DNA of 44,777 nucleotides, taken from positions 1 to 44,777 of the IMG/VR virus record IMGVR_UViG_3300044833_000046; one strand, written 5' to 3'. The translations under genes and the position numbers were made by a program. Origin of the DNA: a virus. The notes under the pieces were generated by a model. The model saw only the letters and a program-made list of their open reading frames with translations. It was not told the DNA's origin and ran no database searches. Positions 12,596-28,757 of this stretch are shown here, one piece after another (the stretch's first letter is position 1; every line of letters starts with the position of its first letter).

Positions 12596-12616
12596 AAATA
12601 CCCCTCTTCCAAAACG

Positions 12617-12641
12617 TACCCGCGCCATGCGGGTATTTTTT
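12617..12641 (+). terminator. Intrinsic terminator after cI
   Basis: TACCCGC (12617-12623) pairs perfectly with GCGGGTA (12629-12635) around GCCAT and is followed by six T residues. It lies 21 bases after the cI stop and isolates cI transcription from the replication promoter that starts just downstream. Confidence 0.88.
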
Positions 12642-12652
12642 CGTCTATTAGG

Positions 12653-12705: not shown

Positions 12706-12756
12706 GAAGTCTGATGTACGTAATTCCCTTACCCCATGTGACCCGGAGCCGATGAC

Positions 12757-15341: not shown

Positions 15342-15951
15342 ATTGAAAAACGTTCGGATCGCCTTTATCGATTCGCTCATCGGTGCGGCTAAAGACTACC
15401 AAGACAATGGGCGTTTCCGCCACAGTGCGACGTTCCTTGTCGCGCCGGGCAGCGAGAACGACAAGGCGATCGAAGCGGCGTTTAAGACCGAAGCCGCAGC
15501 GATGTGGCCGAAGAAAGCGCAAGCGATGATCGACGAGTTCAAGCCGCAAGGTAACAAGTGCTGCTACCAGAAGGGCGACACGAAAGAGTACGACGGGTTC
15601 GAAGGGATGATGGTGCTCGCCGGCCACCGTCAAGTAAAAGACGGACGTCCGATGTTGTTCGATAACGTCGGCTACGTGGACCCTGAAGACGGCAAAACGA
15701 AACCCAAGAAGCTGATGGGCTCCGACGGCAAGTTCTATCCGGGCAAGGAAGGCCGCATTTACGCCGGCAGCTACGTGAACGCCACCGTTGAGATCTACGC
15801 ACAAGGCGCCCCCAATCCCGGCCTGCGTTGTGGCCTGATCGCGGTCCAGTACCACGGCGAAGGCGATTCGTTCGGCGGCGCATCGAAGCCCAAGGATGAA
15901 GACTTCGAAGTCATCGACGCCCCGGAAATGGCCGAAGACGACATCAGCTAA
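15325..15951 (+). CDS. Single-stranded DNA-binding protein, DUF2815/Enc34-like
   Basis: This encodes 208 residues. It starts with KVKLKNVRIAF and continues with GRFRHSATFLVAPGS, KPQGNKCCYQKGD, MMVLAGHRQV and RIYAGSYVNATVEIY. This is the OB-fold pattern of the DUF2815/Enc34 ssDNA-binding family, related in fold to T7 gp2.5. The C-terminus is acidic (APEMAEDDIS), as expected for SSBs that recruit partners through the tail. It sits in the DUF2800-polymerase cassette and probably coats ssDNA for the phage polymerase. A UUCG-capped hairpin follows the stop. Confidence 0.9.
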   Translation: MSTKVKLKNVRIAFIDSLIGAAKDYQDNGRFRHSATFLVAPGSENDKAIEAAFKTEAAAMWPKKAQAMIDEFKPQGNKCCYQKGDTKEYDGFEGMMVLAGHRQVKDGRPMLFDNVGYVDPEDGKTKPKKLMGSDGKFYPGKEGRIYAGSYVNATVEIYAQGAPNPGLRCGLIAVQYHGEGDSFGGASKPKDEDFEVIDAPEMAEDDIS

Positions 15952-15958
15952 GCATCAC

Positions 15959-15977
15959 GGCGCCTTCGGGCGCTTGT
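15959..15977 (+). terminator. UUCG hairpin after the SSB gene, weak terminator candidate
   Basis: GCGCC (15960-15964) pairs with GGCGC (15969-15973) around a TTCG tetraloop, with one extra G-U pair, followed by TTGT. The tetraloop makes the hairpin stable but there is no real U tract, so it may protect or attenuate the SSB message more than end it. Confidence 0.4.
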
Positions 15978-16007
15978 AACGAACCCCGAAACTCTTAAGG
16001 TAAAAAC

Positions 16008-16823
16008 ATGGCCCGCATCAGATCCAAAATTTCAGGCGACGTCTTCGAAGCGCTCGCCGTCGACTTCGCCAATGAAGCCGACTTCGAAGTGGTCGACCCG
16101 AGCACGCCGATTACCATCCCAAACGCTGGCGCCACGTCTGCCCAAGCAGCTACGGCCGACACGTCTGGTACGACCGTTGGTACCGTCGATACGCCCTCAG
16201 CGACGAGCACGGACCCGGCGGTTGACGTCCCAAACGTTGCGTCGTCGACCTCATCTTCGGCGGAATCTGTTGCCACCGAGCTTGGATCGACGAGCACGGA
16301 CAGCCCCGCATCGAGTACATCGACCCCGCCAGTATTCGACACCCCCTCAGACCTGACTATCGCTGCGCCGGTTGTGGATACGTCTACCGAAGCTACCCCG
16401 ACTACGCCGAGCACCACTGCGGCTGACCTGGGAAACGTCGTTGCCGTCACCGCCCCTTCGGCGTCTGCTACGCCTGCGAGTGCCGACAGTTCCGTGGTGG
16501 CTGACCCAAACGCCGGCGCGGTGCCGGATACGACCCTGTCTGGTTCGACGAGTGCGGCGGCTGACCCGGGAAACGTAGTTGCCGGCACGGACTTGGACCC
16601 CGCTGCTGGCTCTGCATCAACGCCATCCGCTACGACCTCGCCCGCCTCTTCGGCGAGCGCTAGCCTGACCACACCGGCCAAGCACATCGTCGCAACGCAA
16701 CTCGAGGCCGACATCCTGTTCGCGGTCGCGCAGCTCGTGACGCCGACCGACAGCATCAAGCACGCGGCCGATGCGTTCTTCGCGATGGTCAATTCGCAGA
16801 TCGACGTCGAAGCGGCAAGCTAA
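16008..16823 (+). CDS. Ser/Thr/Ala/Pro-rich protein with a long disordered middle, unknown
   Basis: This encodes 271 residues. About 35 ordered N-terminal residues (MARIRSKISGDVFEALAVDF) and about 55 C-terminal residues (HIVATQLEADILFAVAQLVT onward) flank roughly 180 residues of Ser/Thr/Ala/Pro/Asp low complexity. Within it, blocks such as ADLGNVVAVTAPSA and ADPGNVVAGTDLDPA are imperfect duplications that are also visible in the DNA (near 16420 and 16559). No family is recognised. Two small domains joined by a long flexible tether could bridge replication proteins, for example the SSB encoded just upstream. An AAGG ribosome site precedes ATG 16008. Confidence 0.65.
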   Translation: MARIRSKISGDVFEALAVDFANEADFEVVDPSTPITIPNAGATSAQAATADTSGTTVGTVDTPSATSTDPAVDVPNVASSTSSSAESVATELGSTSTDSPASSTSTPPVFDTPSDLTIAAPVVDTSTEATPTTPSTTAADLGNVVAVTAPSASATPASADSSVVADPNAGAVPDTTLSGSTSAAADPGNVVAGTDLDPAAGSASTPSATTSPASSASASLTTPAKHIVATQLEADILFAVAQLVTPTDSIKHAADAFFAMVNSQIDVEAAS

Positions 16824-17076
16824 AGAAGGGTTCGGAACCGGTCACGCGGCGGTCGGCGCCGCAGAACATACCCGGATCGGTTCCACCGAATACAGCGGGA
16901 CGGCCACTCCAAGTTGTGACCCGGCGCACAGCACTAAGTCTTTACTTGCTACCCGTCAGTGCCCGCGCGAACGTTTTTCACGCTGGCGGCGTGCATAAAT
17001 CGGGGCCGTTAGACATTGACCGAAAAGTTTAGACACGCCGGATTTACCCAACTCAGTAGTACTAAGGGGTCACATC
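16824..17076 (+). other. Non-coding gap with a long-range inverted repeat
   Basis: There is no convincing gene in these 253 bases. GGAACCG (16834-16840) is inverted as CGGTTCC (16878-16884), enclosing several GC-rich inverted segments. A TTGACC (near 17018) without a clear -10 could be a remnant promoter. The stretch ends in an AAGGGG ribosome site for the small membrane protein at 17077. Confidence 0.4.
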
Positions 17077-17226
17077 ATGATTGTCTTCGAAATTATGCTC
17101 GCAGTTCTCGTTGGGAATATCTCCGGCATTGCGGGCGGTTTCATGGCGCGTAATGCTATCGGCGTCGTGGCGTTCGCGGTGATGGGCTTCGTGATCGCTG
17201 GCTTGATTGAGATGGTGGTTGCGTGA
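17077..17226 (+). CDS. Small two-TM membrane protein
   Basis: This encodes 49 residues, preceded by an AAGGGG Shine-Dalgarno. It is almost wholly hydrophobic, with two glycine-rich transmembrane segments separated by MARN (GNISGIAGGF region, then GVVAFAVMGFVIAGL). The stop overlaps the next start as GTGA. Its function is unknown. Small phage membrane proteins in early operons are sometimes host-takeover or exclusion factors, but nothing here is specific. Confidence 0.65.
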   Translation: MIVFEIMLAVLVGNISGIAGGFMARNAIGVVAFAVMGFVIAGLIEMVVA

Positions 17227-17861
17227 CTCGCTTCAACGTCCGGTGCAGCAAGGAAACGTGCAAGCTGCGCTACGTCTTCGACCGTCACCCGGACGACTAC
17301 AAAATCCCGCGCAAGTGTAATAAGTGCGGCGGGACAAAATTTCGCGTTATCAAAAACATGGCGAAGGATCGCGGAGCTTATGAGCACTGCTTATGCACGG
17401 GATACGCATGGTGTGGAGTTGGACCCCGCAGTGGCATGCCTAGCGGTCAACCACCGCACAGACGCGGTTCGCCAGGGTGTTTCTTCGATCGCGACGGCAC
17501 GCAGCGCGAGCACGATGAGTTCGACCGGTCAGCTTACTCTTGCCCTCACGACGGGATACCACGTTGGCCCGCTGTTTATTGTTCAGAAGCGACGCGCCCC
17601 TGTTATTCACGGTGGCACCTCGGGTGGGAAGCGACGGCGCGCTCGCGAGCGCAGGAACACGCCGAAGTGGGCAGACCTGGCGGCGATCCGTGCGATGTAC
17701 CGGGAAGCAGCCCGACTGACGAAGACGACGGGCGAGATGCATGTGGTCGACCACATCGTGCCGCTGGACGGGAAGCTAGTCTGCGGCCTGCACTGGCACG
17801 TGAACATGGAAGTGATGCACTGGCTACCGAACGCGAAGAAGGGTTGGGGCACTTGGCCTGA
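17223..17861 (+). CDS. Zinc-ribbon phage protein with an out-of-frame C-terminal overlap
   Basis: The frame is 212 residues from GTG 17223. Residues 1-45 carry two Cys pairs (C8/C13 and C32/C35, the latter CNKCGG) and a HPDDYKIPRKC core. Residues 55-102 carry CLCTGYAW, PPHRRGSPGC and DGTQREHDEFD, the pattern of small zinc-binding phage proteins that lie just upstream of HNH endonuclease genes. In that family the protein usually ends soon after the last motif. Here the frame stays open for about 110 more residues through the HNH gene, and that stretch looks like out-of-frame translation (Arg/Pro/Gly/Ser-rich). Either the normal stop was lost or the protein really carries this tail. A DNA- or RNA-binding accessory role is inferred. 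Confidence 0.65.
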   Translation: MTRFNVRCSKETCKLRYVFDRHPDDYKIPRKCNKCGGTKFRVIKNMAKDRGAYEHCLCTGYAWCGVGPRSGMPSGQPPHRRGSPGCFFDRDGTQREHDEFDRSAYSCPHDGIPRWPAVYCSEATRPCYSRWHLGWEATARSRAQEHAEVGRPGGDPCDVPGSSPTDEDDGRDACGRPHRAAGREASLRPALAREHGSDALATEREEGLGHLA

Positions 17862-17892
17862 CATGCCGTTCGAACAATTGGAGTTGCTGTGA
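17515..17892 (+). CDS. HNH endonuclease
   Basis: This encodes 125 residues from ATG 17515. An in-frame ATG at 17380 with a GGAG site would give 170 residues, but the added part is out-of-frame coding for the zinc-ribbon gene and does not resemble the family. The HNH core is clear: MHVVDHIVPLDGKLVCGLHW, then HVNMEV, with the Asp-His pair of the first strand, the Asn in the middle and a terminal N-x-K-K-G (NAKKGW). It begins with a basic region (KRRRARERRNTPKWADLAAI). Such free-standing HNH enzymes in phage replication operons may be homing nucleases or packaging or recombination aids. It overlaps the zinc-ribbon frame by 347 bases and couples to the next gene through GTGA. Confidence 0.82.
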   Translation: MSSTGQLTLALTTGYHVGPLFIVQKRRAPVIHGGTSGGKRRRARERRNTPKWADLAAIRAMYREAARLTKTTGEMHVVDHIVPLDGKLVCGLHWHVNMEVMHWLPNAKKGWGTWPDMPFEQLELL

Positions 17893-18110
17893 TCCACTAC
17901 TTTCCCGTCCAAGAGGCTGACGGCTCGTGGTCTGTTGCCTACGTCCGCCCGACGCGCTTCGAAACGCTCATCGTATTGCAGTGTCGGCAAGAACAAACGG
18001 CGCGTGAGCAAGCCGCGCAAATGAATCTCGACGCCGTGAACCAAGTCACAAAGCCCTACACCCCTGGTGAGTTCGTTGCTATTCGCGGGTTCTACGGTAA
18101 CGACGAATGA
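17889..18110 (+). CDS. Hypothetical small protein before the DNA polymerase
   Basis: This encodes 73 residues from GTG 17889 (GTGA overlap with the HNH stop), ending in ATGA overlap with the polymerase gene. It is mostly beta-like in the first half (MIHYFPVQEADGSWSVAYVR) and then helical (QEQTAREQAAQMNLDAVNQV). No family is recognised. Tight coupling on both sides supports expression with the polymerase. Confidence 0.6.
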   Translation: MIHYFPVQEADGSWSVAYVRPTRFETLIVLQCRQEQTAREQAAQMNLDAVNQVTKPYTPGEFVAIRGFYGNDE

Positions 18111-20269
18111 AACTCTGGCTTGATTCAGAAACCTTCAGCCCTACCCCGCTTAAGTCGGGTACTCATATATACGCCGAGCCCGTCGAGATCATGCTCGTCA
18201 CGTACGCCGTTGACGACGGTGAAGTGCAGGCGTGGGATCGTACGGCGGGCGAGCCGATGCCGGGCGATCTCGACATGGCGATCGACGAGGCCGACGAGTA
18301 TTGGTGGCAAAACGGAAACATGTTCGACTACACCGTCATGCGCCACGACATGCCCGAACTGCTCGCGCGCATGCCGACTGTGAAGTGGCGCGATACGATG
18401 CTGCAAGCGTACGAACACAGCTTGCCGGGCGCTTTGGATCTGCTTTGCCAGATCTTCAACGTGCCGCAGGACCAGGCCAAAGACAAACGCGGCATGGCGC
18501 TGATCCGCCTATTCTGCATGCCCCGCCCGGTCAACATGGAACTGCGCCGCGCCACGCGGCTGACACATCCTGTCGAGTGGGCTGAGTTCGTCGACTACGC
18601 GAAGTCAGACATTCGCGCGATGCGAGCCGTCCACGCGAAAATCCCCAAATGGAATTACCCCAATAACAAATCCGAACTTGCGCTATCGCATCTCGACATA
18701 GGTATCAATCAACGCGGCATGCAGATGGACGTCGAGTTGGCCGAAGCCGCCGTGCGGGCGATTGCCATCACACAGAAGGAACTCGCCGCGCGCACGGTGG
18801 AGCTCACCGATGGCGAAGTGCAGAAGGCCACGCAGCGCGACAAGATGCTCAAGCACTTGCTCGCCGAGTACGGCGTCGACTTGCCGGACATGAAGAAGTC
18901 GACGCTCGAGCGCCGCATTCTCGACCCCGATCTGCCGGACGCTTTGCGCGAACTGCTCGCGATCCGGCTCGAAGCCACGATGACCAGCACGTCGAAATAC
19001 AAAACGCTGCTGCGTGGCGTGTCCTCAGACGGCCGGCTGCGCGGGCTGATGCAGTTCTGCGGCGCCAACCGCACGGGCCGCGTGGCGCACCGCCTGTATC
19101 AGCCGGGCAACATGCCACGACCGAACGTGCCGCTGATCCTGAAAGAGTTGGGGCTTAAGAAGCTCGGTGACGGCGACATGCAGCGATACGTCGACATGGG
19201 TGTCGCGGCGCTCAAAACTGATTGCGCCGACCTGATTTTCAGTAATGTCATGGGCCTGACGTCCAACGTGATCCGCGGCTCGATCGTCGCACCGCCGGGT
19301 AAAAAGCTGGTGGTGTCCGACTTGTCGAACATCGAAGGCCGGGTCGCGGCCTGGTTGTCGGGCGAAGACTGGAAGCTGCAAGCGTTCCGCGATTACGACA
19401 CGATCATCGGCCACAAGCCGGACGGCGAGCCGATCCGCAAAGGGCTTGACCTGTACGTCCTGGCGTATGCGCGCTCGTTCGGCGTCGATCCGGCAACCGT
19501 CGACAAGGTGATGCGACAGCTCGGCAAGGTGCAGGAACTCGCGCTTGCATATGAAGGCGGCGTCGGCGCGTTCGTCACGTTCACGCTGACCTACAAGATG
19601 GAACTCGATCTCATTCGTGCGGCCGTGTTCGCGGCGCTCGATACGATCGACCCCGAGATCGTGCGCGAGGCCCGTAACGCGTGGGAGTGGTTCCTTAAAA
19701 AGAAACGCACGCTCGGGCTTGAGCAAGACGTCTTTATCGCGTGCGACATTCTGAAACGCACGTGGCGCCGCGCGCACCCGGCCACGTCAAGCTACTGGCC
19801 CGAACTGAAAGCCGCAGCCGTGCGCGCGATCTGCTCGCCGGGCACGACGGTTCATTGCCGGCGCATCATTTTGCGGCGCGATGGCAACTGGCTGCGAGTG
19901 CAAATGCCAAGCGGCCGGCAGCTTTGCTATATCGCGCCGAAGGTGAGCGACGACGGCGAACTGTCGTACATGGGCGTGAATCCTTACTCACGCAAATGGC
20001 AACGCGTTAAGACCTACGGCGGCAAGTTGTTTGAGAACTTGTGCCAGGCAGTTGCCCGCGACGTGCTGTTCGAATCCATGCCGCGCGCTGAAGCCGCCGG
20101 CTACGAGATCGTGCTGTCGGTGCACGACGAGCTCGTGACCGAAACCCCGGATCGAGAAGAGTTCAGCGAGCGCCAACTGTCGGAAATCATCGCGACGATT
20201 CCGCCTTGGGCAACGGGCTTGCCGCTGTCGGCTGCGGGCTTTGAAGGCGACCGGTACAAAAAAGAATAA
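18107..20269 (+). CDS. Family A DNA polymerase (phage type) with 3'-5' exonuclease domain
   Basis: This encodes 720 residues. The N-terminal exonuclease domain begins at once with LWLDSETFS (D6 and E8, the DxE metal site), with further acids in 'WWQNGNMFDY' and YAKSDIRAM. The polymerase domain carries motif A VVSDLSNIEGRVAAWL near 403-418, a motif B-like KVQELALAYEGGVGAF (470s) and motif C LSVHDELVTE near 670-680. Length and motif wording match the phage polymerases that travel with DUF2800 and DUF2815 genes. It should copy phage DNA with the primase-helicase encoded on the opposite strand. Operator-like sites lie directly downstream (20280-20319). Confidence 0.95.
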   Translation: MKLWLDSETFSPTPLKSGTHIYAEPVEIMLVTYAVDDGEVQAWDRTAGEPMPGDLDMAIDEADEYWWQNGNMFDYTVMRHDMPELLARMPTVKWRDTMLQAYEHSLPGALDLLCQIFNVPQDQAKDKRGMALIRLFCMPRPVNMELRRATRLTHPVEWAEFVDYAKSDIRAMRAVHAKIPKWNYPNNKSELALSHLDIGINQRGMQMDVELAEAAVRAIAITQKELAARTVELTDGEVQKATQRDKMLKHLLAEYGVDLPDMKKSTLERRILDPDLPDALRELLAIRLEATMTSTSKYKTLLRGVSSDGRLRGLMQFCGANRTGRVAHRLYQPGNMPRPNVPLILKELGLKKLGDGDMQRYVDMGVAALKTDCADLIFSNVMGLTSNVIRGSIVAPPGKKLVVSDLSNIEGRVAAWLSGEDWKLQAFRDYDTIIGHKPDGEPIRKGLDLYVLAYARSFGVDPATVDKVMRQLGKVQELALAYEGGVGAFVTFTLTYKMELDLIRAAVFAALDTIDPEIVREARNAWEWFLKKKRTLGLEQDVFIACDILKRTWRRAHPATSSYWPELKAAAVRAICSPGTTVHCRRIILRRDGNWLRVQMPSGRQLCYIAPKVSDDGELSYMGVNPYSRKWQRVKTYGGKLFENLCQAVARDVLFESMPRAEAAGYEIVLSVHDELVTETPDREEFSERQLSEIIATIPPWATGLPLSAAGFEGDRYKKE

Positions 20270-20276
20270 AAAGTGC

Positions 20277-20319
20277 TTGTACGGAAAAACCGGACGGAGT
20301 AATGTACGGATATTCCTTA
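20277..20319 (+). promoter_or_regulatory. Operator-like sites and possible internal promoter after the polymerase gene
   Basis: TACGGATATTCCTTA (20305-20319) matches the perfect operator dyad upstream of the replication operon in 13 of 15 positions. A weaker copy, TACGGAAAAACCGGA, lies at 20280-20294. A poor -35 (TTGTAC, 20277-20282) and -10 (TAATGT, 20300-20305) would fit between and within them. This suggests a third CI/Cro-controlled start point, feeding the small genes, VRR-NUC, integrase and rtcB. Confidence 0.5.
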
Positions 20320-20336
20320 CTAAACCCGAGACAAAA

Positions 20337-20441
20337 ATGATCCTCACCTACGTAGCCCGCTGGACGATGCACGACGTCTGCCGGCTTACCCACAGCATGC
20401 GCGCCACGATTTGGGTGCGCTTACTTCGAGTTCAGTCATGA
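20337..20441 (+). CDS. Very small basic protein (34 residues)
   Basis: It runs from ATG 20337 to a TGA that overlaps the next start as ATGA, giving a short, Arg-rich, partly hydrophobic peptide (MILTYVARWTMHDVCRLTHS, then a hydrophobic Arg-rich end). It is the first reading frame after the putative internal promoter. The stop-start overlap is the main argument for translation, perhaps as a leader that couples the following gene. No homologue is recognised. Confidence 0.4.
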   Translation: MILTYVARWTMHDVCRLTHSMRATIWVRLLRVQS

Positions 20442-20773
20442 ACAAGCACATAGAAAAAGCGCAGCGGAAATTGGTGTGCGCGCAAGAGGCACTAGCGCAA
20501 ACGGTACGTGAGATTGTTTTAGCGTGCGCACACCAACACGTAGCGGAGTGCACCGATATGGATGGATCGGAATGGCGCGTATGCCTCGATTGCGGCTTAA
20601 CGGATGAGGGATGGGGCTGCGGATACCAAGTACTCACGCCTGCGCGGGAGCACATCGGTCGCATTTCGCGCGACAAGTTGCTGAACATCCGAACTGCATC
20701 GTTGTGGCAGCGGAACTATGGGCGTCCGCTTCACGCTCAGATTGAAGATTTTCTTGGGATAAAAGGAAAATAA
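20438..20773 (+). CDS. Small zinc-binding-type phage protein, unknown
   Basis: This encodes 111 residues from ATG 20438. A helical N-terminus (HIEKAQRKLVCAQEALAQTV) precedes a likely zinc site built from C-x-H-x-H (CAHQH), then RVCLDCGLTDEGWGCGYQVL, a pattern (RVC-x2-CGL-x-E-x-GWG-x-GY) seen in several small phage proteins of unknown function. An in-frame TTG or GTG upstream is not needed because ATG overlaps the previous stop. A nucleic-acid-related role is a guess from the zinc-ribbon look. Confidence 0.65.
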   Translation: MNKHIEKAQRKLVCAQEALAQTVREIVLACAHQHVAECTDMDGSEWRVCLDCGLTDEGWGCGYQVLTPAREHIGRISRDKLLNIRTASLWQRNYGRPLHAQIEDFLGIKGK

Positions 20774-20776
20774 ATC

Positions 20777-20953
20777 ATGAAAACCACTCTCAACCGTTGG
20801 CTGCTGACCCGCCGCCTTCGCGCCATCAAGCGCGATATCGATTACCTGTATCAGGTGCGGCGCGAAACCGTGCGGCGTGAGTCGGCGCTGAAGTACAAAG
20901 CCGACAAGATCAGTTGCGCGCTGATGGCTTTGGAGTTCAGTCGCCATGGTTGA
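20777..20953 (+). CDS. Small basic helical protein (58 residues)
   Basis: It starts at ATG 20777, three bases after the previous stop, with AAGGAAAATAAATC as ribosome site. It is highly basic and helical (RRLRAIKRDIDYLYQVRRET). No family is recognised. It overlaps the next small frame by eight bases. It could bind nucleic acid. Confidence 0.5.
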   Translation: MKTTLNRWLLTRRLRAIKRDIDYLYQVRRETVRRESALKYKADKISCALMALEFSRHG

Positions 20954-21050
20954 CGCCCTCATTTACGCGGTGGGCGTCCTTTCGGTGTTCGTGGTTTGCC
21001 TGCTCGCCGACATAGAACGTCTCAAGCGCGAGTTGAATCGTCGTGCTTGA
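20946..21050 (+). CDS. Single-TM micro-protein (34 residues)
   Basis: It begins at ATG 20946 inside the end of the previous gene and ends at 21050 inside the first codons of the VRR-NUC gene. It has one N-terminal transmembrane helix (ALIYAVGVLSVFVVCLLADI) and a short basic tail. Overlaps on both sides support it as part of the coupled string. No function can be assigned. Confidence 0.45.
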   Translation: MVDALIYAVGVLSVFVVCLLADIERLKRELNRRA

Positions 21051-21321
21051 ACGCACCGTCGAAGAACACTTCGTATCGCGCGCCAAGCACTACGGCGGCG
21101 AGCAACGCAAGATCCGTTACATCGGCCGCAAGGACGCGACGGATCGGGTGCTCGTGCTGTGCGGTCAAGTGTTCTTCGTCGAACTGAAACGCCCAAAGGG
21201 CAAACCCCGAGCCAGTCAGGTTCGCGAACACGAACGCCTGCGCGCTGTCGGTGCGGACGTTCGTGTGCTCGACACCATTGAAGCGGTCGACGCGTTTTTC
21301 CAAGAGGTTGCATTGCTATGA
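21043..21321 (+). CDS. VRR-NUC domain nuclease
   Basis: This encodes 92 residues, a stand-alone VRR-NUC (PD-(D/E)XK superfamily) typical of phages. It starts at GTG 21043 (LERTVEEHFVSRAKHYGGEQ). Active-site residues appear as Glu in the first helix, Asp in GRKDATDRV, and VELKRPKGKPRASQVREHER, containing the E-x-K and the conserved Gln. Such enzymes act on branched or structured DNA in replication and recombination. It sits in the usual cassette with the polymerase upstream and the SNF2 helicase downstream, although here integrase, rtcB and attP are interposed. Confidence 0.9.
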   Translation: MLERTVEEHFVSRAKHYGGEQRKIRYIGRKDATDRVLVLCGQVFFVELKRPKGKPRASQVREHERLRAVGADVRVLDTIEAVDAFFQEVALL

Positions 21322-21551
21322 ACAGACACCATGAATCTATCGGCGCCCGCATCCGCCGGTTGCGCAAGGAAATGGAACTGACGCAGGTTGAGTTTTCCGG
21401 GATTATCGGCTGTCGGAAAAACAACATTGGGTTGATCGAAACCAACCGTTCAATCCCCGGACTCATGCTGGCTATCGAAATCGCAAAGGCGTGCGAGGTC
21501 TCGATCGATTACTTGTGTTGCCTATCTGACGACCCGGAGATACGCGCATGA
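21318..21551 (+). CDS. XRE-family HTH regulator
   Basis: This encodes 77 residues with a complete XRE/Cro-type HTH: GARIRRLRKEMELTQVEFSG, IIGCRKNNIGLIETNRSIPG, then a final helix ending SIDYLCCLSD. It overlaps the VRR-NUC stop (ATGA). It differs from CI and from the divergent Cro, so it is a third regulator, placed to be made early or with integrase. Control of int-rtcB or antagonism of CI are reasonable hypotheses; the sequence alone does not choose. Confidence 0.85.
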   Translation: MNRHHESIGARIRRLRKEMELTQVEFSGIIGCRKNNIGLIETNRSIPGLMLAIEIAKACEVSIDYLCCLSDDPEIRA

Positions 21552-21679
21552 ACCGCTACGACCCGATCACGATGGAAGACGTCTCGGACGCCGACACGTT
21601 GCTGTACATTATCCGCCTGGGCCTGGGCATGCTCACGCTGTGCGTTATCGGTCTCGGAATCCTGTTGGGGTTCTTATGA
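21548..21679 (+). CDS. Small single-TM protein (43 residues)
   Basis: It starts at ATG 21548 in overlap with the HTH gene and ends at 21679 in ATGA overlap with the next gene. A polar N-terminus (MNRYDPITMEDVSDADTLLY) precedes one C-terminal transmembrane helix (GLGMLTLCVIGLGILLGFL). No family is recognised. The coupling at both ends is the evidence for it. Confidence 0.55.
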   Translation: MNRYDPITMEDVSDADTLLYIIRLGLGMLTLCVIGLGILLGFL

Positions 21680-21903
21680 ACGACCGCCTGATGTCGCCGG
21701 TCGACCTGATCGATACCACCGGCAAGACTCGCTACACCGCGCAAGCCGAATGGTTTAAACGCACGTTCGGCTGCGAGCCGGCGCGCGGCGCTGGCGGTAG
21801 ACTGATTGTGACTTGGGCCACGTTCGAAGCATTGAGCGCGAAGAAAAACGGGCTTTCCGTTGGCGTCGAAGATGCCGGGAAAGTCGAACTGTGTTTCGAT
21901 TGA
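21676..21903 (+). CDS. DUF4224-like small protein
   Basis: This encodes 75 residues from ATG 21676. The layout MSPVDLIDTTGKTRYTAQAE, WFKRTFGCEP, then GRLIVTWATFEAL, is that of the DUF4224 family, small proteins (LTG-x-Q-x2-L-x5-G-x9-GR-x2-V pattern) found in many phages, often next to integrase genes. Some small proteins in that position act as excisionase or recombination directionality factors. The integrase lies two genes downstream, so a directionality role is a fair hypothesis. Confidence 0.7.
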   Translation: MNDRLMSPVDLIDTTGKTRYTAQAEWFKRTFGCEPARGAGGRLIVTWATFEALSAKKNGLSVGVEDAGKVELCFD

Positions 21904-21907
21904 GATC

Positions 21908-22144
21908 ATGGAACCATTCGTCGTAAGAAATTACACAGGCGAAGACCGCCCGACCATAAAAGGCAACGGCTTCGACGGTTTAGAAATCGGCGAAGATCGG
22001 GAAGAAGCCGAGCGCTTCGTGGCGCTTGTGAATCGCGCCATAGCTGCGCTTCGGGAGTTGGACGACGCTGTTCGCTGTAACCAGTCTGATCGCGTGCTCG
22101 ACGCGCTGTTCGCCGCTGAAGAACTGCTCGGCATCGCCCCATGA
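21908..22144 (+). CDS. Hypothetical acidic protein before integrase
   Basis: This encodes 78 residues from ATG 21908 (GAG ribosome element 4-6 bases upstream). Longer in-frame starts overlap the preceding gene and are rejected. A short beta-like opening (MEPFVVRNYTGEDRPTIKGN) leads to an acidic helical half (DREEAERFVALVNRAIAALR). The stop overlaps the integrase start (ATGA). No family is recognised. Position makes it another excisionase candidate. Confidence 0.6.
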   Translation: MEPFVVRNYTGEDRPTIKGNGFDGLEIGEDREEAERFVALVNRAIAALRELDDAVRCNQSDRVLDALFAAEELLGIAP

Positions 22145-23229
22145 CCACCCGCAAAAAAGCCAAATACCCTCGCGTCTATCCGTCAGACGGCTCGTGGTAT
22201 TGGTCCGAGCCGGTCAGCGGCAAGTGGATTCGTCTGTGCAAACTCACCGACAGCGAAGACCTGCTCGTCAAGCGCTTGGCCGAAGAGATGGAAAAGCGCA
22301 AGCGGCCCGAGGGTTCGGGCGACATGCGGCCGTTGATCGACACGTACGTGAAAGAGCACAAGGCCAACCAGAAAGACCCGGCGTGGCCGAAGTACGGCGA
22401 GTACGCCGGCATTGGCTTTCGCAACTCCGACGTGCGCGCGGTCAAGCCGACGCATATCTCGAATTGGCTGAAGGTGAAGTACGCCGGCAAGCTGTCGATG
22501 CAGCGGATCATGCGCTCGTTTCTTTCAGGCTTCTTTCAGTGGTGCGTCGAGAAGGGCAAGCGCGACACGAACCCCTGCAAGGAAGTGAAGCTGAAAAAGC
22601 CCAAGCCGAGCAAGACGTACATCACCGACGAGCACTTCGCGGCGATCCGCACGGCCATGCTGACGGCAACGTACACCAAGAAAGACGGCAAGGTGATTAC
22701 GCAGAAGGTGCCGACCGGCCCGATGATGCAGTGCTTTATCGACCTGTGCTATCTGACGCTGCAACGCTCGACCGAGATCCGCCTTTTAAAATGGTCGGAC
22801 GTCGATCGTGCGGCCGGCGTGATCCACTTCCTGCCGACCAAGACCGAAGATTCAAGCGGCATTGCCGTCGACATCACGATCACGCCCGAGATCGTCGCGG
22901 TGCTGGAACGCATTGCCACGATCGACGGTTACACACGAATCGGTGCGGCGCCAGTCATCCACGCGATCGACGGCAGCGAGTACGCACCTGGCGCTTTCCG
23001 CGCGGCGTTCGACAGGGCCGCTGAACGGGCTGAACTGAGCGAGTTGGGATACACGGTCAAGATGGTGCGCGCGAAGGCGCTGACGGACGCGGAGCGCGCC
23101 GGGTACGACATCAAGGCGTTGCAGGCTGCGGCTGCGCATTCGAGCCAAAGCACAACCGAGATTTATTTCAAACAGCGCGAAGTGCCGGTGGCTGATGTCC
23201 GGCTGCGCATACCCAGGAGTGCGGCATGA
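22141..23229 (+). CDS. int: Tyrosine recombinase (integrase)
   Basis: This encodes 362 residues. An N-terminal arm-binding domain (RVYPSDGSWYWSEPVSGKWI) and a SAM-like core-binding domain lead into the catalytic domain. The first catalytic Arg lies in LQRSTEIRLLKWSDVD (near 209), the second Arg in VKMVRAKALTDAE (near 309), the His in AAAHSSQSTTEIY, and the nucleophile Tyr in EIYFKQR (near 341). The usual HxxR box reads KMVR, so its His is Lys here; this occurs in some recombinases but is worth noting. It should recombine attP (24481-24531) with a host tRNA-Pro gene. Its stop overlaps the rtcB start (ATGA), and rtcB separates it from attP. Confidence 0.93.
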   Translation: MTTRKKAKYPRVYPSDGSWYWSEPVSGKWIRLCKLTDSEDLLVKRLAEEMEKRKRPEGSGDMRPLIDTYVKEHKANQKDPAWPKYGEYAGIGFRNSDVRAVKPTHISNWLKVKYAGKLSMQRIMRSFLSGFFQWCVEKGKRDTNPCKEVKLKKPKPSKTYITDEHFAAIRTAMLTATYTKKDGKVITQKVPTGPMMQCFIDLCYLTLQRSTEIRLLKWSDVDRAAGVIHFLPTKTEDSSGIAVDITITPEIVAVLERIATIDGYTRIGAAPVIHAIDGSEYAPGAFRAAFDRAAERAELSELGYTVKMVRAKALTDAERAGYDIKALQAAAAHSSQSTTEIYFKQREVPVADVRLRIPRSAA

Positions 23230-24410
23230 AGTCCGTAATAAACACTGAAGGTTCACGGCCGATCAAAATTTGGACCGACGAGATTGAAGACGCAGCGCTC
23301 ACGCAGCTCAAGAATCTGGCGCGGCTCCCGTTCATAGCGGGCAACGGCGTGGCCTGCATGCCGGACGTGCACGCGGGCATCGGCTCTACTGTCGGCACGG
23401 TGATCGCTACCGACCGGGCTATTATCCCGGCTGCGGTTGGCGTCGATATTGGCTGCGGCATGAACGCTGTCCGGTTGTCGTTGAAGGCGTCCGACTTACC
23501 GGATAGTCTATTGGCGATCCGCCATCAGATCGAACGCGACGTGCCGCTCGGAACCGGCGGCGCTCACAACGAAGACCGCGTACCGGAAGTTGATTCGGGT
23601 ATGTGGTTGTCGCTTGCAGCGCTCACGGCGAAGCATCCGGGTATTGCAAAGAACCGCGCGCAGAAACAACTCGGTTCGCTCGGCTCAGGTAATCATTTTA
23701 TCGAGTTGTGCATCGACGAATCGCAAGACGTCTGGATTATGTTGCATTCGGGTTCGCGCGGCGTCGGTAACCTGATCGGCCGCTACTTCATTGAGAAGGC
23801 GAAGCGTCGGATGGAACAATATTTCATCAGCCTGCCGGATGGCGATCTCGCTTACTTTCCCGAAGATACCGACGACTTCAACGATTATGTTGAAGCGGTG
23901 AATTGGGCTCAGGACTACGCGCTTGAGAACCGCCGCGTGATGATGTCGACCGTTATTGCGGCATTGCGCCGGCATATATTAGTGGGGTTTACGATCACGC
24001 AGGAAGCGATTAACTGTCATCACAATTATGTCGAGCGCGAAAACCACTTCGGTAAAAACTTGTGGGTAACCCGCAAGGGTGCGATTCGTGCTCGCGAAGG
24101 CGATCTCGGAATCATTCCCGGATCGATGGGGCAGCGCAGCTACATCGTGAAGGGCAAAGGCAATGCGGAATCGTATTGCTCGTGCTCCCACGGCGCGGGC
24201 CGCAAGATGAGCCGCACGCAGGCGCGCAAGGTTTTCAACCTCGCGGACCTAGCCGAACAGACTCAAGGCGTCGAGTGCCGCAAAGACGACGCGGTGCTCG
24301 ACGAGATCCCCGGCGCCTACAAATCGATCGATTCCGTCATGGCGAATCAAACCGATCTGGTCGACGTCGTGCACATCTTGAAGCAGGTTCTCTGCGTCAA
24401 GGGCGGCTAA
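23226..24410 (+). CDS. rtcB: RNA ligase RtcB (3'-phosphate/5'-hydroxyl ligase)
   Basis: This encodes 394 residues, full length for the short bacterial form. It seals RNA ends left by endonucleases, using GTP and Mn(II), joining a 3' (cyclic) phosphate to a 5'-OH. All active-site motifs are present: MPDVHAGIGSTVG, VGVDIGCGM (D74, C77), LGSGNHFIE (N156, H157), MLHSGSRGVG (H174), CHHNYV (H266), SHGAGR (H322, the guanylylated histidine by family knowledge) and the C-terminal HILKQVLCVKGG. It starts in ATGA overlap with integrase and ends four bases before the first integrase arm-type site. No archease or RtcA/RtcR gene is near. Repair of tRNAs cut by host anticodon nucleases is a likely use; that is inference. 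Confidence 0.96.
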   Translation: MKSVINTEGSRPIKIWTDEIEDAALTQLKNLARLPFIAGNGVACMPDVHAGIGSTVGTVIATDRAIIPAAVGVDIGCGMNAVRLSLKASDLPDSLLAIRHQIERDVPLGTGGAHNEDRVPEVDSGMWLSLAALTAKHPGIAKNRAQKQLGSLGSGNHFIELCIDESQDVWIMLHSGSRGVGNLIGRYFIEKAKRRMEQYFISLPDGDLAYFPEDTDDFNDYVEAVNWAQDYALENRRVMMSTVIAALRRHILVGFTITQEAINCHHNYVERENHFGKNLWVTRKGAIRAREGDLGIIPGSMGQRSYIVKGKGNAESYCSCSHGAGRKMSRTQARKVFNLADLAEQTQGVECRKDDAVLDEIPGAYKSIDSVMANQTDLVDVVHILKQVLCVKGG

Positions 24411-24413
24411 TTT

Positions 24414-24445
24414 ATTAGGGAAACGTTAGGGAACCGATTAGGGAA
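24414..24445 (+). repeat. Left-arm integrase-site candidates (three phased repeats)
   Basis: TTAGGGAA occurs three times, starting at 24415, 24426 and 24438, that is at 11- and 12-base spacing, close to one helical turn. Related copies lie right of the core at 24649-24656 (within TTTATTAGGGAA, identical over 12 bases to 24411-24422) and inverted at 24581-24588 (TCCCTAAT). Phased direct repeats on both sides of an attP core are the classic form of arm-type integrase sites. Confidence 0.7.
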
Positions 24446-24480
24446 CACAAAACGCGCTACCCGCAAAGCCTTATAAATAG

Positions 24481-24531
24481 TGGTCGGAGCGAAAGGATTC
24501 GAACCTTCGACCCTCTGATCCCAAATCAGAT
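24481..24531 (-). other. attP: attP core: 3' half of tRNA-Pro(UGG)
   Basis: Read on the minus strand these bases form the anticodon stem-loop with TTTGGGA in the loop (anticodon TGG), a variable loop GGGTC, a T arm with TTCGAAT, the 3' acceptor strand CGCTCCG and ACCA. The sequence beyond the anticodon stem does not continue as a D arm or 5' acceptor strand, so this is not a tRNA gene. It is the tRNA 3'-end identity block that lets a phage integrate into a tRNA gene and restore it. Integration should rebuild tRNA-Pro with rtcB and int immediately downstream of it, in antisense orientation. Confidence 0.9.
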
Positions 24532-24546
24532 AGGTCAATGCGTGGC

Positions 24547-24569
24547 AAAGCCTTACCGGGTAAGGCTTT
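24547..24569. repeat. Perfect hairpin beside the attP core
   Basis: AAAGCCTTACC (24547-24557) and GGTAAGGCTTT (24559-24569) are perfect inverted arms around one G. GCAAAGCCTTA also occurs at 24463-24473 on the other side of the core and at 24545-24555 here, so the motif AAAGCCTTA flanks the core. No T tract follows. Binding of an excision or bending factor or a transcription block at attP are both possible. Confidence 0.7.
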
Positions 24570-24580
24570 AGCGTGAGTGC

Positions 24581-24656
24581 TCCCTAATCATTTGCTCAAG
24601 AAACAGGCACGACCGCATAAGGGTTTGCGGGCAATGCCATAGCATTTATTAGGGAA
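24581..24656. repeat. Right-arm integrase-site candidates
   Basis: An inverted site TCCCTAATCA (24581-24590) and a direct site TTTATTAGGGAA (24645-24656) repeat the left-arm motif. The direct site also overlaps the ribosome-binding region of the GTG start at 24663, so integrase bound here could interfere with expression of the downstream gene. Confidence 0.6.
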
Positions 24657-24662
24657 GAAATC

Positions 24663-25148
24663 GTGAAAACCATTGCCAGAATTCTCGCCATTCCTGCCGT
24701 TACCTGCTGGTTAATCCGCCGCTCCATGTGCACGCCCTACCTGCACATCGTCAAAGATGGCGTCACCTACATGGAGCGGTACTGGTTAGTAAACCCGTAC
24801 GACAGCGTGACACGCAAGACAAAGCACACGTGGTTCCCGCTGAGTCTGCGAATCCACCACATCATGCAACCCGACCAAGATCGCGATCTTCACGACCACC
24901 CGTGGAACGCCCGTACCTTCATCCTGCGTGGTTGGTATATCGAGGAACGGGAAAACGGACATTGGGCTGTGCGCACCAGAGGCGAAACCGCCCGGCTCGA
25001 CTTCGGCGAATACCACCGCATTACCGAAGTCTCAGACGGTGGCGTGTGGACGTTGTTCGTTACGAGCAAGTTTCAGGGTGTGTGGGGTTTCAAAGTGGAC
25101 GGCGTGAAGGTGCCGTTTTGGGAATATCTGGCGAAAAAAGCCGAATGA
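24663..25148 (+). CDS. Cupin-like small protein
   Basis: This encodes 161 residues from GTG 24663 (AGGGAAG upstream). After a hydrophobic N-terminus (ILAIPAVTCWLI) comes TPYLHIVKDGVTYMERYWLV and then a cupin-type metal box, DRDLHDHPW, followed by TFILRGWYIEER and a second strand containing 'YHRITEV'. The His-x-His spacing and double-stranded beta-helix pattern fit a phage cupin of unknown substrate. It is the first gene on the right side of attP and overlaps the SNF2 gene start (ATGA). The role is unknown; nucleotide-sugar or small-molecule binding are possibilities. Confidence 0.7.
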   Translation: MKTIARILAIPAVTCWLIRRSMCTPYLHIVKDGVTYMERYWLVNPYDSVTRKTKHTWFPLSLRIHHIMQPDQDRDLHDHPWNARTFILRGWYIEERENGHWAVRTRGETARLDFGEYHRITEVSDGGVWTLFVTSKFQGVWGFKVDGVKVPFWEYLAKKAE

Positions 25149-26590
25149 CCCGCCGGATATATAACCCGAGCGAAGGGCAACTGCGGATCGGCGAACACCT
25201 AGCCGAGCACGAGCGGTGCGCGGTCTTTGCGTCAATGGGGCTTGGAAAAACCAGCTCGACGCTTTCGCATCTCGAAGCGCTCTACTCGCTCGGCATCGAG
25301 ACTGAACCGACGCTCGTAATCGCCCCGCTGCGCGTCGCACAATCCACCTGGCCGGACGAGTGCCGGAAGTGGGATCACCTGTCGGGAATGGACGTCGTGC
25401 CAATCATCGGCAACGCGGCGCAACGGGCGATGGCTCTGCGCACGGACGCGCCGATCATGACGATCAATTACGAAAACCTACCCTGGCTGGTGGACTGGTT
25501 CAAGCATAACCCCCGCCCGTGGCCGTTCGGCTCGGTGGTGGCCGACGAGTCGACGAAGCTAAAGTCGACGCGGATCTCGACGCAGGTGAGTAAGAAGGGA
25601 AACGAGTTCCTGAAAAAGACCGGCGGCAGTGTGCGCGGCCGGGCGCTTGCCGAGGTTGCGCACAAGAAGGTGCGGCGCTGGATCAACCTGACCGGCACGC
25701 CAGCCCCCAACGGGCTAAAAGATCTTTGGGGCCAGACGTGGTTTTTGGACGGTGGAACCCGGCTCGGGCGCAACTTCACGTCGTTTCAAAACCGGTGGTT
25801 CCAAGCCGTGCCCGGCGGTGGCGCGGGCTACACCCAGATCAAACCGCTCGACCATGCGCAAGACGAGATCCAAGCCAAGCTGCGCGACATCTGCCTGTCG
25901 TTGAACGCCGCCGACTATTTCGACATTAAAGAGCCGATCGTGCGGCGGATATACGTCGACTTGCCGGCGCCCGCTCGGCGGCTGTATCAGGACATGGAAA
26001 AGCGCATGTATATGGAAATCGGCGAGCACGAGATCGAAGCCGTGAACGCCGCCAGCCGCACGATTAAATGTTTACAACTTGCTAACGGAGCCGCATATGT
26101 TGATGATTCAGGAAATTGGAAAGAGGTTCACGATGCCAAATTACAGGCGCTTGAAGATATTGTTGAAGAGGCATCCGGCATGCCTGTACTCGTGGCTTAC
26201 CACTTCAAGTCTGATTTGGCTCGTCTCACTCGTGCTTTTCCTAGGGGGCGCGTCTTGGACGCAAACCCTCAAACTATTCGGGATTGGAACGCTGGGCGTA
26301 TCCCTGTTCTGTTTGCTCACCCTGCTAGCGCTGGGCACGGACTGAACCTTCAGGACGGCGGCAATATCGTGGCGTTCTTCGGCCACTGGTGGAATCTCGA
26401 AGAGTTTCAGCAGATCATCGAGCGGATTGGCCCGACCCGGCAATTGCAGGCCGGCTATAAACGGCCGGTCTTTATTTACCACATCATCGCCCGCGACACA
26501 GTCGACGAAGACGTGATGCTCCGCCGCGAGACAAAGCGCGAAGTGCAGGACATCTTGCTCGAAGCCATGAAGCGTAAGCGAGTGGTATAA
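25145..26590 (+). CDS. SNF2-type superfamily 2 helicase/translocase
   Basis: This encodes 481 residues from ATG 25145 (overlapping the upstream stop). Upstream in-frame codons belong to out-of-frame reading of the cupin gene and are rejected. Motif I is SMGLGKTSS, motif II VADESTKLKS, motif III NLTGTPAPNGLKDLWG, and motifs V and VI are ASAGHGLNLQ and QIIERIGPTRQ. This short phage SNF2 helicase normally closes the DUF2800, polymerase, VRR-NUC cassette and probably remodels replication or recombination intermediates. Between about 26066 and 26350 the codons switch from C/G-ending to T/A-ending and then back, so part of the gene has a different history or carries a second constraint (see the nested frame). 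Confidence 0.93.
   Translation: MTRRIYNPSEGQLRIGEHLAEHERCAVFASMGLGKTSSTLSHLEALYSLGIETEPTLVIAPLRVAQSTWPDECRKWDHLSGMDVVPIIGNAAQRAMALRTDAPIMTINYENLPWLVDWFKHNPRPWPFGSVVADESTKLKSTRISTQVSKKGNEFLKKTGGSVRGRALAEVAHKKVRRWINLTGTPAPNGLKDLWGQTWFLDGGTRLGRNFTSFQNRWFQAVPGGGAGYTQIKPLDHAQDEIQAKLRDICLSLNAADYFDIKEPIVRRIYVDLPAPARRLYQDMEKRMYMEIGEHEIEAVNAASRTIKCLQLANGAAYVDDSGNWKEVHDAKLQALEDIVEEASGMPVLVAYHFKSDLARLTRAFPRGRVLDANPQTIRDWNAGRIPVLFAHPASAGHGLNLQDGGNIVAFFGHWWNLEEFQQIIERIGPTRQLQAGYKRPVFIYHIIARDTVDEDVMLRRETKREVQDILLEAMKRKRVV
26097..26345 (+). CDS. Possible nested two-TM membrane protein inside the SNF2 gene
   Basis: This is an 82-residue frame in the +1 phase, ATG 26097 with GGAG six bases upstream. The sequence is basic at the start (KRFTMPNYRRLKILLKRHPA) and then has two hydrophobic segments (SLIWLVSLVLFLGGASW and GTLGVSLFCLLTLLALG). 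It coincides with the codon-usage island of the host gene. Caution: T-ending codons of the helicase become second-position T in this phase, which makes any such frame hydrophobic, so hydrophobicity is not independent evidence. The ribosome site and uninterrupted length argue for it; a recombined patch argues against. Confidence 0.3.
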   Translation: MLMIQEIGKRFTMPNYRRLKILLKRHPACLYSWLTTSSLIWLVSLVLFLGGASWTQTLKLFGIGTLGVSLFCLLTLLALGTD

Positions 26591-26617
26591 ACTCCCGCTT
26601 AAAACTTAAGGTACGCC

Positions 26618-26698
26618 ATGAAATATTTAGCCGCCGCTTTGCTCGTCGCCCTAATCTGCTGGCAACTAGCCCGTCATTTATTCGTGATGGGCGCCTGA
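26618..26698 (+). CDS. Single-TM micro-protein (26 residues)
   Basis: It runs from ATG 26618, preceded by TTAAGGTACGCC, to TGA 26698, and consists of one hydrophobic helix (YLAAALLVALICWQLARHLF). It ends two bases before the GTG of the polytopic membrane protein. A clear ribosome site and tight spacing suggest it is translated, perhaps as a small partner or leader of that protein. Confidence 0.5.
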   Translation: MKYLAAALLVALICWQLARHLFVMGA

Positions 26699-26700
26699 CA

Positions 26701-27822
26701 GTGAAAATATTATCGGCCGCTGAAAAGTTCATCTTCGAAACACCGGCATGGAAGTTCGTCACTATCGTGCTCGCGATGACCCTGATGAAGTCTGGCATAT
26801 GGGAAATCCCCAACCTGGGTGCGCTCCAAGTGCTGGCGATGGACCCGTTTAAAAATCCCTTCCAAATTCCCGAGCAGCAGTATTTATTCTGGAACTGGCT
26901 CGGATCGTTCATCGCACACGAGGTTCACGCTACATCGCCCCGACGTTTCTTTCTGCTGCACCTGGCGTTCTCGATGGCCTTCACGGCGCTGTTTGTGAAG
27001 ACAGTGTTTTCCCGATTCGACGGCCGGACCGCCAGGGTAGCGCTCTTGATTTTCGTCGCGCTTCCAGTATCGGCAACGGCCTACTATTGGGTATCTTACG
27101 ACTCGCTCACGCTCATGCTGATGATGGCCGCGCTGGCGATGCCGCGTTCACGGTTCGTCGTCGCGCTGGTTGGCGTCGGACTCGGAATGCAGCACTTCGA
27201 GCAATCTATGGTGGGCGCTGCGGCGATCTTCGGCGCGATGGTGCTGGGCCATATGTTCGACGGCGAGCGACCCTATTCGTGGCACTGGTTGCTCGGCCTC
27301 GTCGTTGGGATTGTGGCGGGGAAATTAGTGCTGATGGGAATCATCAGGCACTGGAATATCCAGATCGACGGCGGACGGGTGTTTTGGCTGAAGCAATACT
27401 TGCCGATGACTCTGAACCAGTTTTCCTACCATCCCTTTGTCACGATCTTTTCAGCGTTCGGGGTGGCGTGGCTGGCGGTCTTCAAGCAGTTTGACGATGG
27501 CCGAAAGGCGGTCCCGATACTCGCGGTTCTAGGAGGCCTAATGTTCCTGCTGCCGATCTCGGGAGATCAGACACGCGTCTTTGCAGTGTCGAGCTTCATG
27601 GTGATCGGGGTCTACTGGCTGTTCAACCCCGCCTTCATCAGATCGATCGACAATAAGACTGCTTCCGTATTGTTTCTCGCGTGGCTCGTCGTGCCGTGGG
27701 CTTGGGTATGGGGAGCAGTGCCCCGCGCTTCAGCGCTTCCCATGAACATAGCCGTGCTGCTTCACGCAGTGTTCGGCTGGCCGGCTCTTCCAGCCGACAC
27801 GCTGACGTGGCCGTTCTACTAG
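26701..27822 (+). CDS. Polytopic membrane protein, candidate lysogenic-conversion factor
   Basis: This encodes 373 residues from GTG 26701, with about nine or ten hydrophobic segments distributed over the whole length and short polar loops. Loops contain FNPA, ISGDQTR and HWNIQIDGGRVFWLKQY. I do not recognise the family. The size and topology resemble phage-borne O-antigen modifying or GT-C-type membrane enzymes and Wzy-like proteins, which alter the lysogen surface and block superinfection. It is the last rightward gene and would lie near one prophage end after integration. Its stop codon and the opposite-strand stop of the next gene share the palindrome CTAG at 27819-27822. Confidence 0.7.
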   Translation: MKILSAAEKFIFETPAWKFVTIVLAMTLMKSGIWEIPNLGALQVLAMDPFKNPFQIPEQQYLFWNWLGSFIAHEVHATSPRRFFLLHLAFSMAFTALFVKTVFSRFDGRTARVALLIFVALPVSATAYYWVSYDSLTLMLMMAALAMPRSRFVVALVGVGLGMQHFEQSMVGAAAIFGAMVLGHMFDGERPYSWHWLLGLVVGIVAGKLVLMGIIRHWNIQIDGGRVFWLKQYLPMTLNQFSYHPFVTIFSAFGVAWLAVFKQFDDGRKAVPILAVLGGLMFLLPISGDQTRVFAVSSFMVIGVYWLFNPAFIRSIDNKTASVLFLAWLVVPWAWVWGAVPRASALPMNIAVLLHAVFGWPALPADTLTWPFY

Positions 27823-28757
27823 TGAACGCGGAGCGCCGAGATAAAGCCATTCGCGGTACACGTACTCACAGAGAAGCTGGCGTTAACAATTGCGAACACG
27901 GTTGTGGTTGACCCCAACGGCACGCGCACCCACGGCGATGCAGGGGTTTGAGAGAAGCCGGCCGCTGCGCCGGTAGCCGCTGCCGTGAAGCTGCCTAACG
28001 CGCCCTGCGTTGCAGATGTCGTGCTTACGCCGACAACGACGTTTGAGATAACTGTCGTGCCAGCAGGAACGACCTGAGCGATTGCTTGCACGAACCAAAT
28101 TCCCGGCCCCAAGCTGATGCTCGCGACATTCGCTGCCGTGGCATTTGTCAGCGAAACCCCGGAAAGGTTTGTCGGCGTCGGGCTTTCGCCTACGCTCCCT
28201 GCTGAAGCATTGGTTGCCGCTGTGACGCCAACAATGTTCGGCTGGTTGATCGTAGGTTGCGCGGTCACAAAGGCGGTGGTAGCCAACTGTGTCGTGCTGG
28301 CGCCGGCTGTTGCCGTAGGCGCGGTGGGCGTGCCGGTCAAAGCAGGCGACGCAAGGGGCGCGTACGTCGATGTTGCGCTTGCCGTCGTCAGGTATCCAGG
28401 CACAACCGGCGAGCCTGTGAATGACGGAGACGCCAACGGCGCATAGGTAGACGTAGCCAAGTTGATCGTAAGATATCCTTGGTTCACCACATATGCCGTA
28501 GTTGCGAGCTGCGTCGTCGTCGTGTTGAGCGCGGCGGTTGGCGCAGTCGGGATGCCCGTAAATGCAGGGGAGGCGAGCGTTGCATACCCAAGCGCGCCGA
28601 TCGTCGACCACGTGGCGGGGGTCGTCGGCCCGGTTGACGTAACGACCTGGCCGCTCGTCGAGCCAACCGGGTTCATCATCCCGAGCGGGTACAGCGAAGC
28701 GGCGCTCGCGGATACAGTCAGCAGCGCGGCGATTACGCCGGCAAGAATTCGTTTCAT
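27819..28757 (-). CDS. Exported protein with signal peptide and tail-fibre-type repeats
   Basis: This encodes 312 residues from ATG 28757, overlapping the holin stop as ATGA. The first 19 residues (MKRILAGVIAALLTVSASA) are a textbook Sec signal peptide with an AxA cleavage site and no lipobox. The mature part contains repeats YAPLASPALTGTPTAPTA and TTQLATTAFV, present in two or three imperfect copies, which are typical of phage tail-fibre shafts. A C-terminal beta domain follows (ISLGPGIWFVQAIAQVVPAG onward). Virion fibre proteins do not normally carry signal peptides. It lies where spanin genes are expected. A secreted or periplasmic role at lysis is possible, but its function is unknown. 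Confidence 0.75.
   Translation of the reverse strand: MKRILAGVIAALLTVSASAASLYPLGMMNPVGSTSGQVVTSTGPTTPATWSTIGALGYATLASPAFTGIPTAPTAALNTTTTQLATTAYVVNQGYLTINLATSTYAPLASPSFTGSPVVPGYLTTASATSTYAPLASPALTGTPTAPTATAGASTTQLATTAFVTAQPTINQPNIVGVTAATNASAGSVGESPTPTNLSGVSLTNATAANVASISLGPGIWFVQAIAQVVPAGTTVISNVVVGVSTTSATQGALGSFTAAATGAAAGFSQTPASPWVRVPLGSTTTVFAIVNASFSVSTCTANGFISALRVH

Follow-up and report, generated by a model that had tools for sequence, protein, structure and literature searches.

An attachment site inside a phage early gene row may restrict full production of an SNF2-type helicase to the free circular genome

In the Burkholderia-type temperate phage genome analyzed here, a stretch of 44,777 nucleotides hereafter called the window, the attachment site (attP) is built into the early gene row, directly upstream of the unit that encodes an SNF2-type DNA helicase. 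We propose that full production of the helicase requires the free circle, i.e., that its expression depends on circularisation as in Tn916, and assign this reading a probability of roughly 0.6. That the helicase could be switched off in lysogens had been the main idea of an initial annotation of this DNA; the idea is plausible and is now better founded.

The virus record was considered circular because of a 127-bp exact repeat at its ends. Burkholderia phage BcepC6B and Bordetella phage BPP-1 have replication genes similar to those of this 44.8-kb genome. A plus-strand early row begins at about 12.7 kb and runs in the order exonuclease, SSB, polymerase, endonuclease, DUF4224 gene, int, rtcB, attP, cupin-like ORF, SNF2 helicase and membrane protein, with int, rtcB, the cupin-like ORF and the helicase gene, identified in Pfam and PHROGs searches, all on the plus strand. 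The remaining ORFs among the early genes from 13305 to 20269 (plus strand) had no assigned function. The genes considered are:

8305-10527, minus strand, VapE/primase protein (AEP, PriCT_2 and VapE domains)
13305-14672, plus strand, DUF2800 exonuclease (Pfam/PHROGs)
15325-15951, plus strand, Enc34-type SSB (Pfam/PHROGs)
18107-20269, plus strand, family A DNA polymerase (Pfam/PHROGs)
21043-21321, plus strand, endonuclease (PHROG 93)
21640-21903, plus strand, excisionase-like gene preceding int (DUF4224; PHROG 1266)
22141-23229, plus strand, tyrosine integrase (PF00589, 4.6e-15; PHROG 1, 1.1e-40)
23226-24410, plus strand, rtcB, RtcB RNA ligase (PF01139, 4.4e-127)
24663-25148, plus strand, cupin-like ORF in the helicase-side slot (PHROG 4786, 2e-38, annotated cysteine dioxygenase)
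25145-26590, plus strand, SNF2-type DNA helicase (PF00176, PHROG 62)
26701-27822, plus strand, predicted membrane protein without a family match (Pfam/PHROGs)

Four nucleotides are shared by int and rtcB (23226-23229), and four by the cupin-like ORF and the helicase gene (25145-25148). The rtcB gene, which thus overlaps int and sits beside the tRNA attachment site, had its nearest phage DNA match (23226-24410, 75.9%) in Bordetella phage vB_BbrM_PHB04. The VapE/primase gene lies apart from the plus-strand early row, and a DNA methylase gene adjoins it at 10524-11459.

The interval 24411-24662 is the gap between the rtcB stop codon (24410) and the start of the cupin-like ORF (24663). Judged by its sequence, 24408-24658 is a complete tyrosine-recombinase attP, composed as follows:

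24408-24658, whole attP; arm spacing constant in relatives
24410-24445, plus strand, putative int-side arm sites, TTAGGGA at 24415, 24426 and 24438
24481-24531, minus strand, core, the 3' half of tRNA-Pro(UGG) from the anticodon stem to CCA; 100% match to host tRNA-Pro
24547-24569, perfect 11-bp inverted repeat AAAGCCTTACC/GGTAAGGCTTT
24577-24656, helicase-side arm, with blocks conserved in an alignment of 15 loci

The initial annotation had located an attP with a tRNA-Pro(UGG) 3' half at 24481-24531 within the same-strand row, and these coordinates proved to be exact. All 52 bases of 24480-24531 (the core plus one flanking base) were matched in the genome of Paraburkholderia panacisoli (E 6.5e-20 in 10.9 Mb), where ARAGORN identified the copy of the core as an intact tRNA-Pro(tgg); no intact tRNA was found by ARAGORN in the window. 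An integrase of the phage_integrase family is encoded near the site (PF00589, E 4.6e-15). Further, the five copies of TTAGGGA present in the 44.8-kb genome, both strands counted, are all located within 24408-24662, and putative arm-type sites flank the core, three of them towards int and two, including an inverted one (TCCCTAA, 24581-24587), towards the helicase gene. A chance likeness of the core to a tRNA was ruled out, given that the match is 52/52, that arm sites are present and that real prophages exist.

Most relatives carry int-side arm sites of the TTAGACA type, and the first site was always found 70 nt from the core and the last one 114-117 nt from it. The helicase-side arm also contains the conserved blocks AGAAACAGGCA and GGTTTGCGG. 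Both recur with a related Int in phages that have other genes downstream and no such helicase (G052, partly G017) and are therefore part of the recombination site rather than of a helicase promoter. The closest integrase in a named genome, at locus L005 of P. panacisoli, was discarded as proof of the site, since int is followed there by similar arm sites with no adjoining tRNA half. More distant integrases of the family (43-46% identity; L016, L017 and L018) have tRNA-Pro 3' halves just after int, with anticodon GGG, not UGG.

The attP is closely fitted into the surrounding coding sequence. In the window, the rtcB stop codon abuts the first arm site and the last arm site, TTAGGGAA at 24649-24656, doubles as the ribosome-binding region of the cupin-like ORF, as judged by start codon distances. 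Across the loci, the left arm starts in or right after the stop codon of the preceding ORF in most cases, and the last arm site, TTATTAGACAGGA or TTATTAGGGAA, supplies the ribosome-binding region, with the start codon 5-13 nt further on (an earlier GTG start is possible in four loci). The first ORF after attP is the helicase gene itself in L110, and in L146 the helicase gene likewise follows attP directly; in the loci other than L110 the slot is occupied by a small, variable ORF, and in nearly all of them an ORF of the slot ends at the helicase start or at most 4 nt from it. The right arm, of about 125 bp, is the sole non-coding DNA before the helicase unit, and attP thus makes up practically all non-coding DNA between int, or its passenger, and that unit. 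A whole attP can therefore be accommodated inside an operon with almost no spare sequence, its outer arm sites abutting or overlapping a stop codon and a ribosome site.

Integrated relatives provided a direct view of how the row is split. In the prophages of G041, G356 (of which G399 is a near copy) and G362, the int-side att is an intact tRNA-Pro(UGG) and the other att its 3' half only, 44-45 kb away, with int inside the first site and the helicase gene just inside the second. The attL/attR pair in tRNA-Pro(UGG) that the initial annotation had suggested looking for is thus present in prophages, and helicase-side junctions are also seen in L113 and L120. Integration parts the helicase gene set from the upstream row, whose early promoter is itself a prediction. 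The neighbors expected at the two ends were recovered in part: int adjoins the rebuilt tRNA gene in the three prophages, but rtcB, which had been placed there with it, was not detected in the integrated relatives; the helicase gene lies at the opposite end, accompanied in G041 by a cupin-like ORF (one is also present in L122), but the membrane gene (26701-27822) was not detected in these relatives either. Hence rtcB looks like a passenger of the int-side slot, and the membrane gene like a local one.

Other arrangements were seen at related sites. In the region G356:C4:27225-112149, three successive tRNA-Pro(UGG) cores are spaced by about 44.5 and 40.3 kb. A single tRNA gene there seems to have received two prophages in tandem, and an unrelated integrase gene lies by the end of the second. 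While G041:C7 holds the integrated phage, G041:C12:923456-923507 is an intact tRNA-Pro whose downstream flank is that of the helicase-side junction, and occupied and empty sites may thus be mixed in the culture or the assembly. The contig G054:C44 (L083 and L089; 39627 bases) carries a complete attP across its ends and the host genome keeps an intact tRNA-Pro; it looks like another phage in free circular form, one that has a related integrase, and its first ORF past the right arm (375 aa) resembles, by eye, a membrane acyltransferase.

Promoters were searched for with the sigma70 consensus, a scan that misses weak or activated promoters. On the plus strand of 12600-28000, two sigma70-like sites were found, a weaker one inside rtcB and the following:

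12676-12705, plus strand, TTGACA-18-TACATT, candidate early promoter, the better of the two matches

This total was below the shuffle mean of 5.0, fewer than expected, so the site at 12676 is regarded as a candidate only. Similar 10/12 sites are located upstream of the exonuclease gene in G362 and G356, at other distances; none of this type was found at that position in G041. Between attP and the helicase gene of the window, the same consensus scan recognised no phage promoter, which agrees with the initial annotation in that the prophage helicase would lack one upstream. Nor was any promoter common to the 15 non-redundant right arms detected in this way; one subgroup (L115, L123, L132 and L134) has a 9/12 promoter-like site there. 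A conserved helicase promoter in the right arm was consequently set aside, the conserved blocks being shared with phages that have other downstream genes.

Terminators were similarly scarce in the direction of the row. No plus-strand terminator-like structure was present from int to the helicase gene in 11 loci, and 12640-26440 of the window contained none on the plus strand vs. 4.4 +/- 1.8 in shuffled sequences, as compared with 14 vs. 12.3 expected on the other strand. This is modest evidence, and it points to possible read-through across attP. The hairpin at 24547-24569 was rejected as a terminator between int and the helicase gene, as it has no T run and is not conserved in relatives.

The same hairpin bears on another explanation, in which the switch acts on int and the position of the helicase gene is secondary. 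In phage lambda, through sib, the 3' end of the int mRNA differs between circle and prophage; here too the 3' end of int (or rtcB) abuts attP, so that the downstream sequence changes upon integration and the stability of the message could change with it. However, a conserved processing hairpin past the core was not found, the one at 24547-24569 not being conserved, and we consider this explanation decidedly improbable.

Transcription from the host was assessed at the junctions. The helicase-side genes are read inward from the host junction, and the initial annotation had envisaged the membrane protein under host transcription; on this basis, the helicase and membrane genes of a lysogen would be read from the adjacent host DNA. 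Against this, 11/11 host flanks retain the hairpin of the native tRNA terminator immediately beyond the helicase-side junction or the empty site (dG -15 to -34). Its T run towards the helicase gene varies, being clear or at the scan threshold in some flanks only, and in L082 and L072 the hairpins have T-rich tails in both directions. The membrane gene, moreover, was not detected in the integrated relatives, and this part of the earlier proposal was not supported: host-driven expression of the two genes appears very remote. After int, G356/G399 and L128 show a hairpin with a T run in the tRNA direction only (by eye), as expected if it stopped the tRNA transcript and let the early transcript pass.

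The split layout is conserved. Besides the window, 12 viral contigs have int, the tRNA-Pro core and the SNF2 helicase gene on the same strand and in the same order; L144, which has no integrase in the part searched, was left out of this count, as was L013/G400, a different arrangement in which the tRNA-Pro half is oriented opposite to int. Two further loci (L147:9317-10004 and L146:495-764) carry different integrases and, between int and the helicase gene, a tRNA-Ser(CGA) 3' half, so that this one slot is used by three integrase/target modules. In the helicase tree, the split layout falls within one 21-row group (support 93/91) and needs 3 label changes vs. 10.2 in shuffles. Since BcepC6B, G188 and G140, with int after the helicase gene, belong to the same group, the layout is not obligatory. 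It may characterize the group and have persisted when the integrase module was exchanged, or it may have been reached more than once. The initial annotation had therefore understated the case, the layout extending across a group and three integrase/target modules, with rtcB a passenger as well.

Selection for the placement of attP would be one explanation; the layout could also result from modules being exchanged several times at a single slot, with no regulatory meaning. In that event, int-attP cassettes would simply be swapped between the endonuclease and helicase genes, and a weak or activated promoter, located in the right arm or the slot ORF, would drive the helicase gene in prophage and circle alike. 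The three different modules in the slot, the int-after-helicase relatives in the same group, the varying passenger ORFs on both sides of attP and the 9/12 site of one subgroup are all in favor. On the other hand, the 15 right arms share no conserved promoter, L110 and L146 leave almost no room for one by having the helicase gene directly after attP, and the tight overlap of slot ORF and helicase gene resembles a single transcription unit. We thus regard exchange without regulatory meaning as unlikely, albeit deserving of some weight.

If production of the helicase does depend on the circle, events would proceed as follows. Int would recombine attP with the 3' end of the host tRNA-Pro(UGG). In the resulting prophage, int stays with the early row and points at the rebuilt tRNA gene, while the helicase gene and the coupled small ORF lie at the other end; no promoter is recognisable there, the terminator hairpin of the host tRNA stands in front of them, and helicase expression in lysogens would be low. 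Upon induction, xis and int could be expressed from the early promoter while the genome is still integrated, but the helicase could not. Once the halves are rejoined, by excision or, following infection, by circularisation, one long early transcript could run through attP into the helicase gene. As that transcript would reach the gene only after rejoining, full helicase output would come only from the free circle.

A further step is more tentative, namely that the position of attP serves as an excision checkpoint, with Xis and Int provided by the prophage and the helicase only after excision, the placement being kept by selection despite exchanged integrases and tRNA targets and the host tRNA terminator acting as an insulator that is left behind. 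We regard this as possible, yet somewhat doubtful. If it were true, full replication or recombination would be licensed by leaving the chromosome, excision would precede full replication, and the phage would presumably benefit. "Licensing of replication" is perhaps too strong a term, because a VapE/primase protein is also encoded; what is licensed could equally be a recombination helicase or an accessory one. The VapE/primase protein (8305-10527) may be the main replication helicase of the phage, and its presence ruled out SNF2 as the sole one. How an induced phage times excision relative to replication is an open question of practical weight, as replication ahead of excision has consequences for the chromosome and for how host DNA is packaged. 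The layout could tie a helicase gene to excision by geometry alone, with no extra regulator, and could be recognised in other genomes as tRNA halves inside same-strand gene rows. Our literature search, in which subscription journals were mostly not covered, retrieved no published phage whose attP splits an early operon, a weak sign of novelty.

Comparison with characterized systems places the proposal among known state-dependent switches. The closest is Tn916, for which circularisation-dependent transcription is described, with measured transcripts, in PMC11658703 and in Celli and Trieu-Cuot 1998 as cited in PMC9956884. Both there and, as a candidate, here, integration parts DNA-processing genes from their promoter, excision joins them, and a terminator bars host transcription. 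Tn916, however, is a conjugative element whose terminator T1 lies inside the element and needs the antiterminator canT (PMC11658703), whereas here a phage helicase gene would be affected, and the terminator of the host tRNA, as candidate insulator, would be left in the chromosome upon excision. In ICEKp1, integrated at tRNA-Asn, promoters switch with state: the integrated element transcribes int from the tRNA promoter, the excised one from a promoter at its 3' end (PMC13023037). The two cases share a tyrosine integrase at a tRNA gene and, in the window as a proposal, a change of promoter for an att-adjacent gene when the element ends are joined; here, in contrast, int faces the tRNA, and it is the helicase gene that is connected differently. 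In mycobacteriophage BPs, also temperate and known for integration-dependent immunity, it is likewise the placement of attP that ties the function of a gene to integration. There, however, the site is within the repressor gene, whose product becomes shorter upon integration (PMC4557955), whereas the attP of the window is intergenic and could affect transcription only. Finally, BPP-1 (Rauchvirus) and BcepC6B (Ryyoungvirus) have homologous exonuclease, SSB, polymerase, endonuclease and helicase genes, and differ in that int is downstream of the helicase gene, int and attP being upstream of it in the window. In BPP-1, the early row ends with int, and the late genes lie beyond the 27-bp tRNA-His attachment site. 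Because of this position of int, integration of BPP-1 and BcepC6B leaves the helicase gene with its early row.
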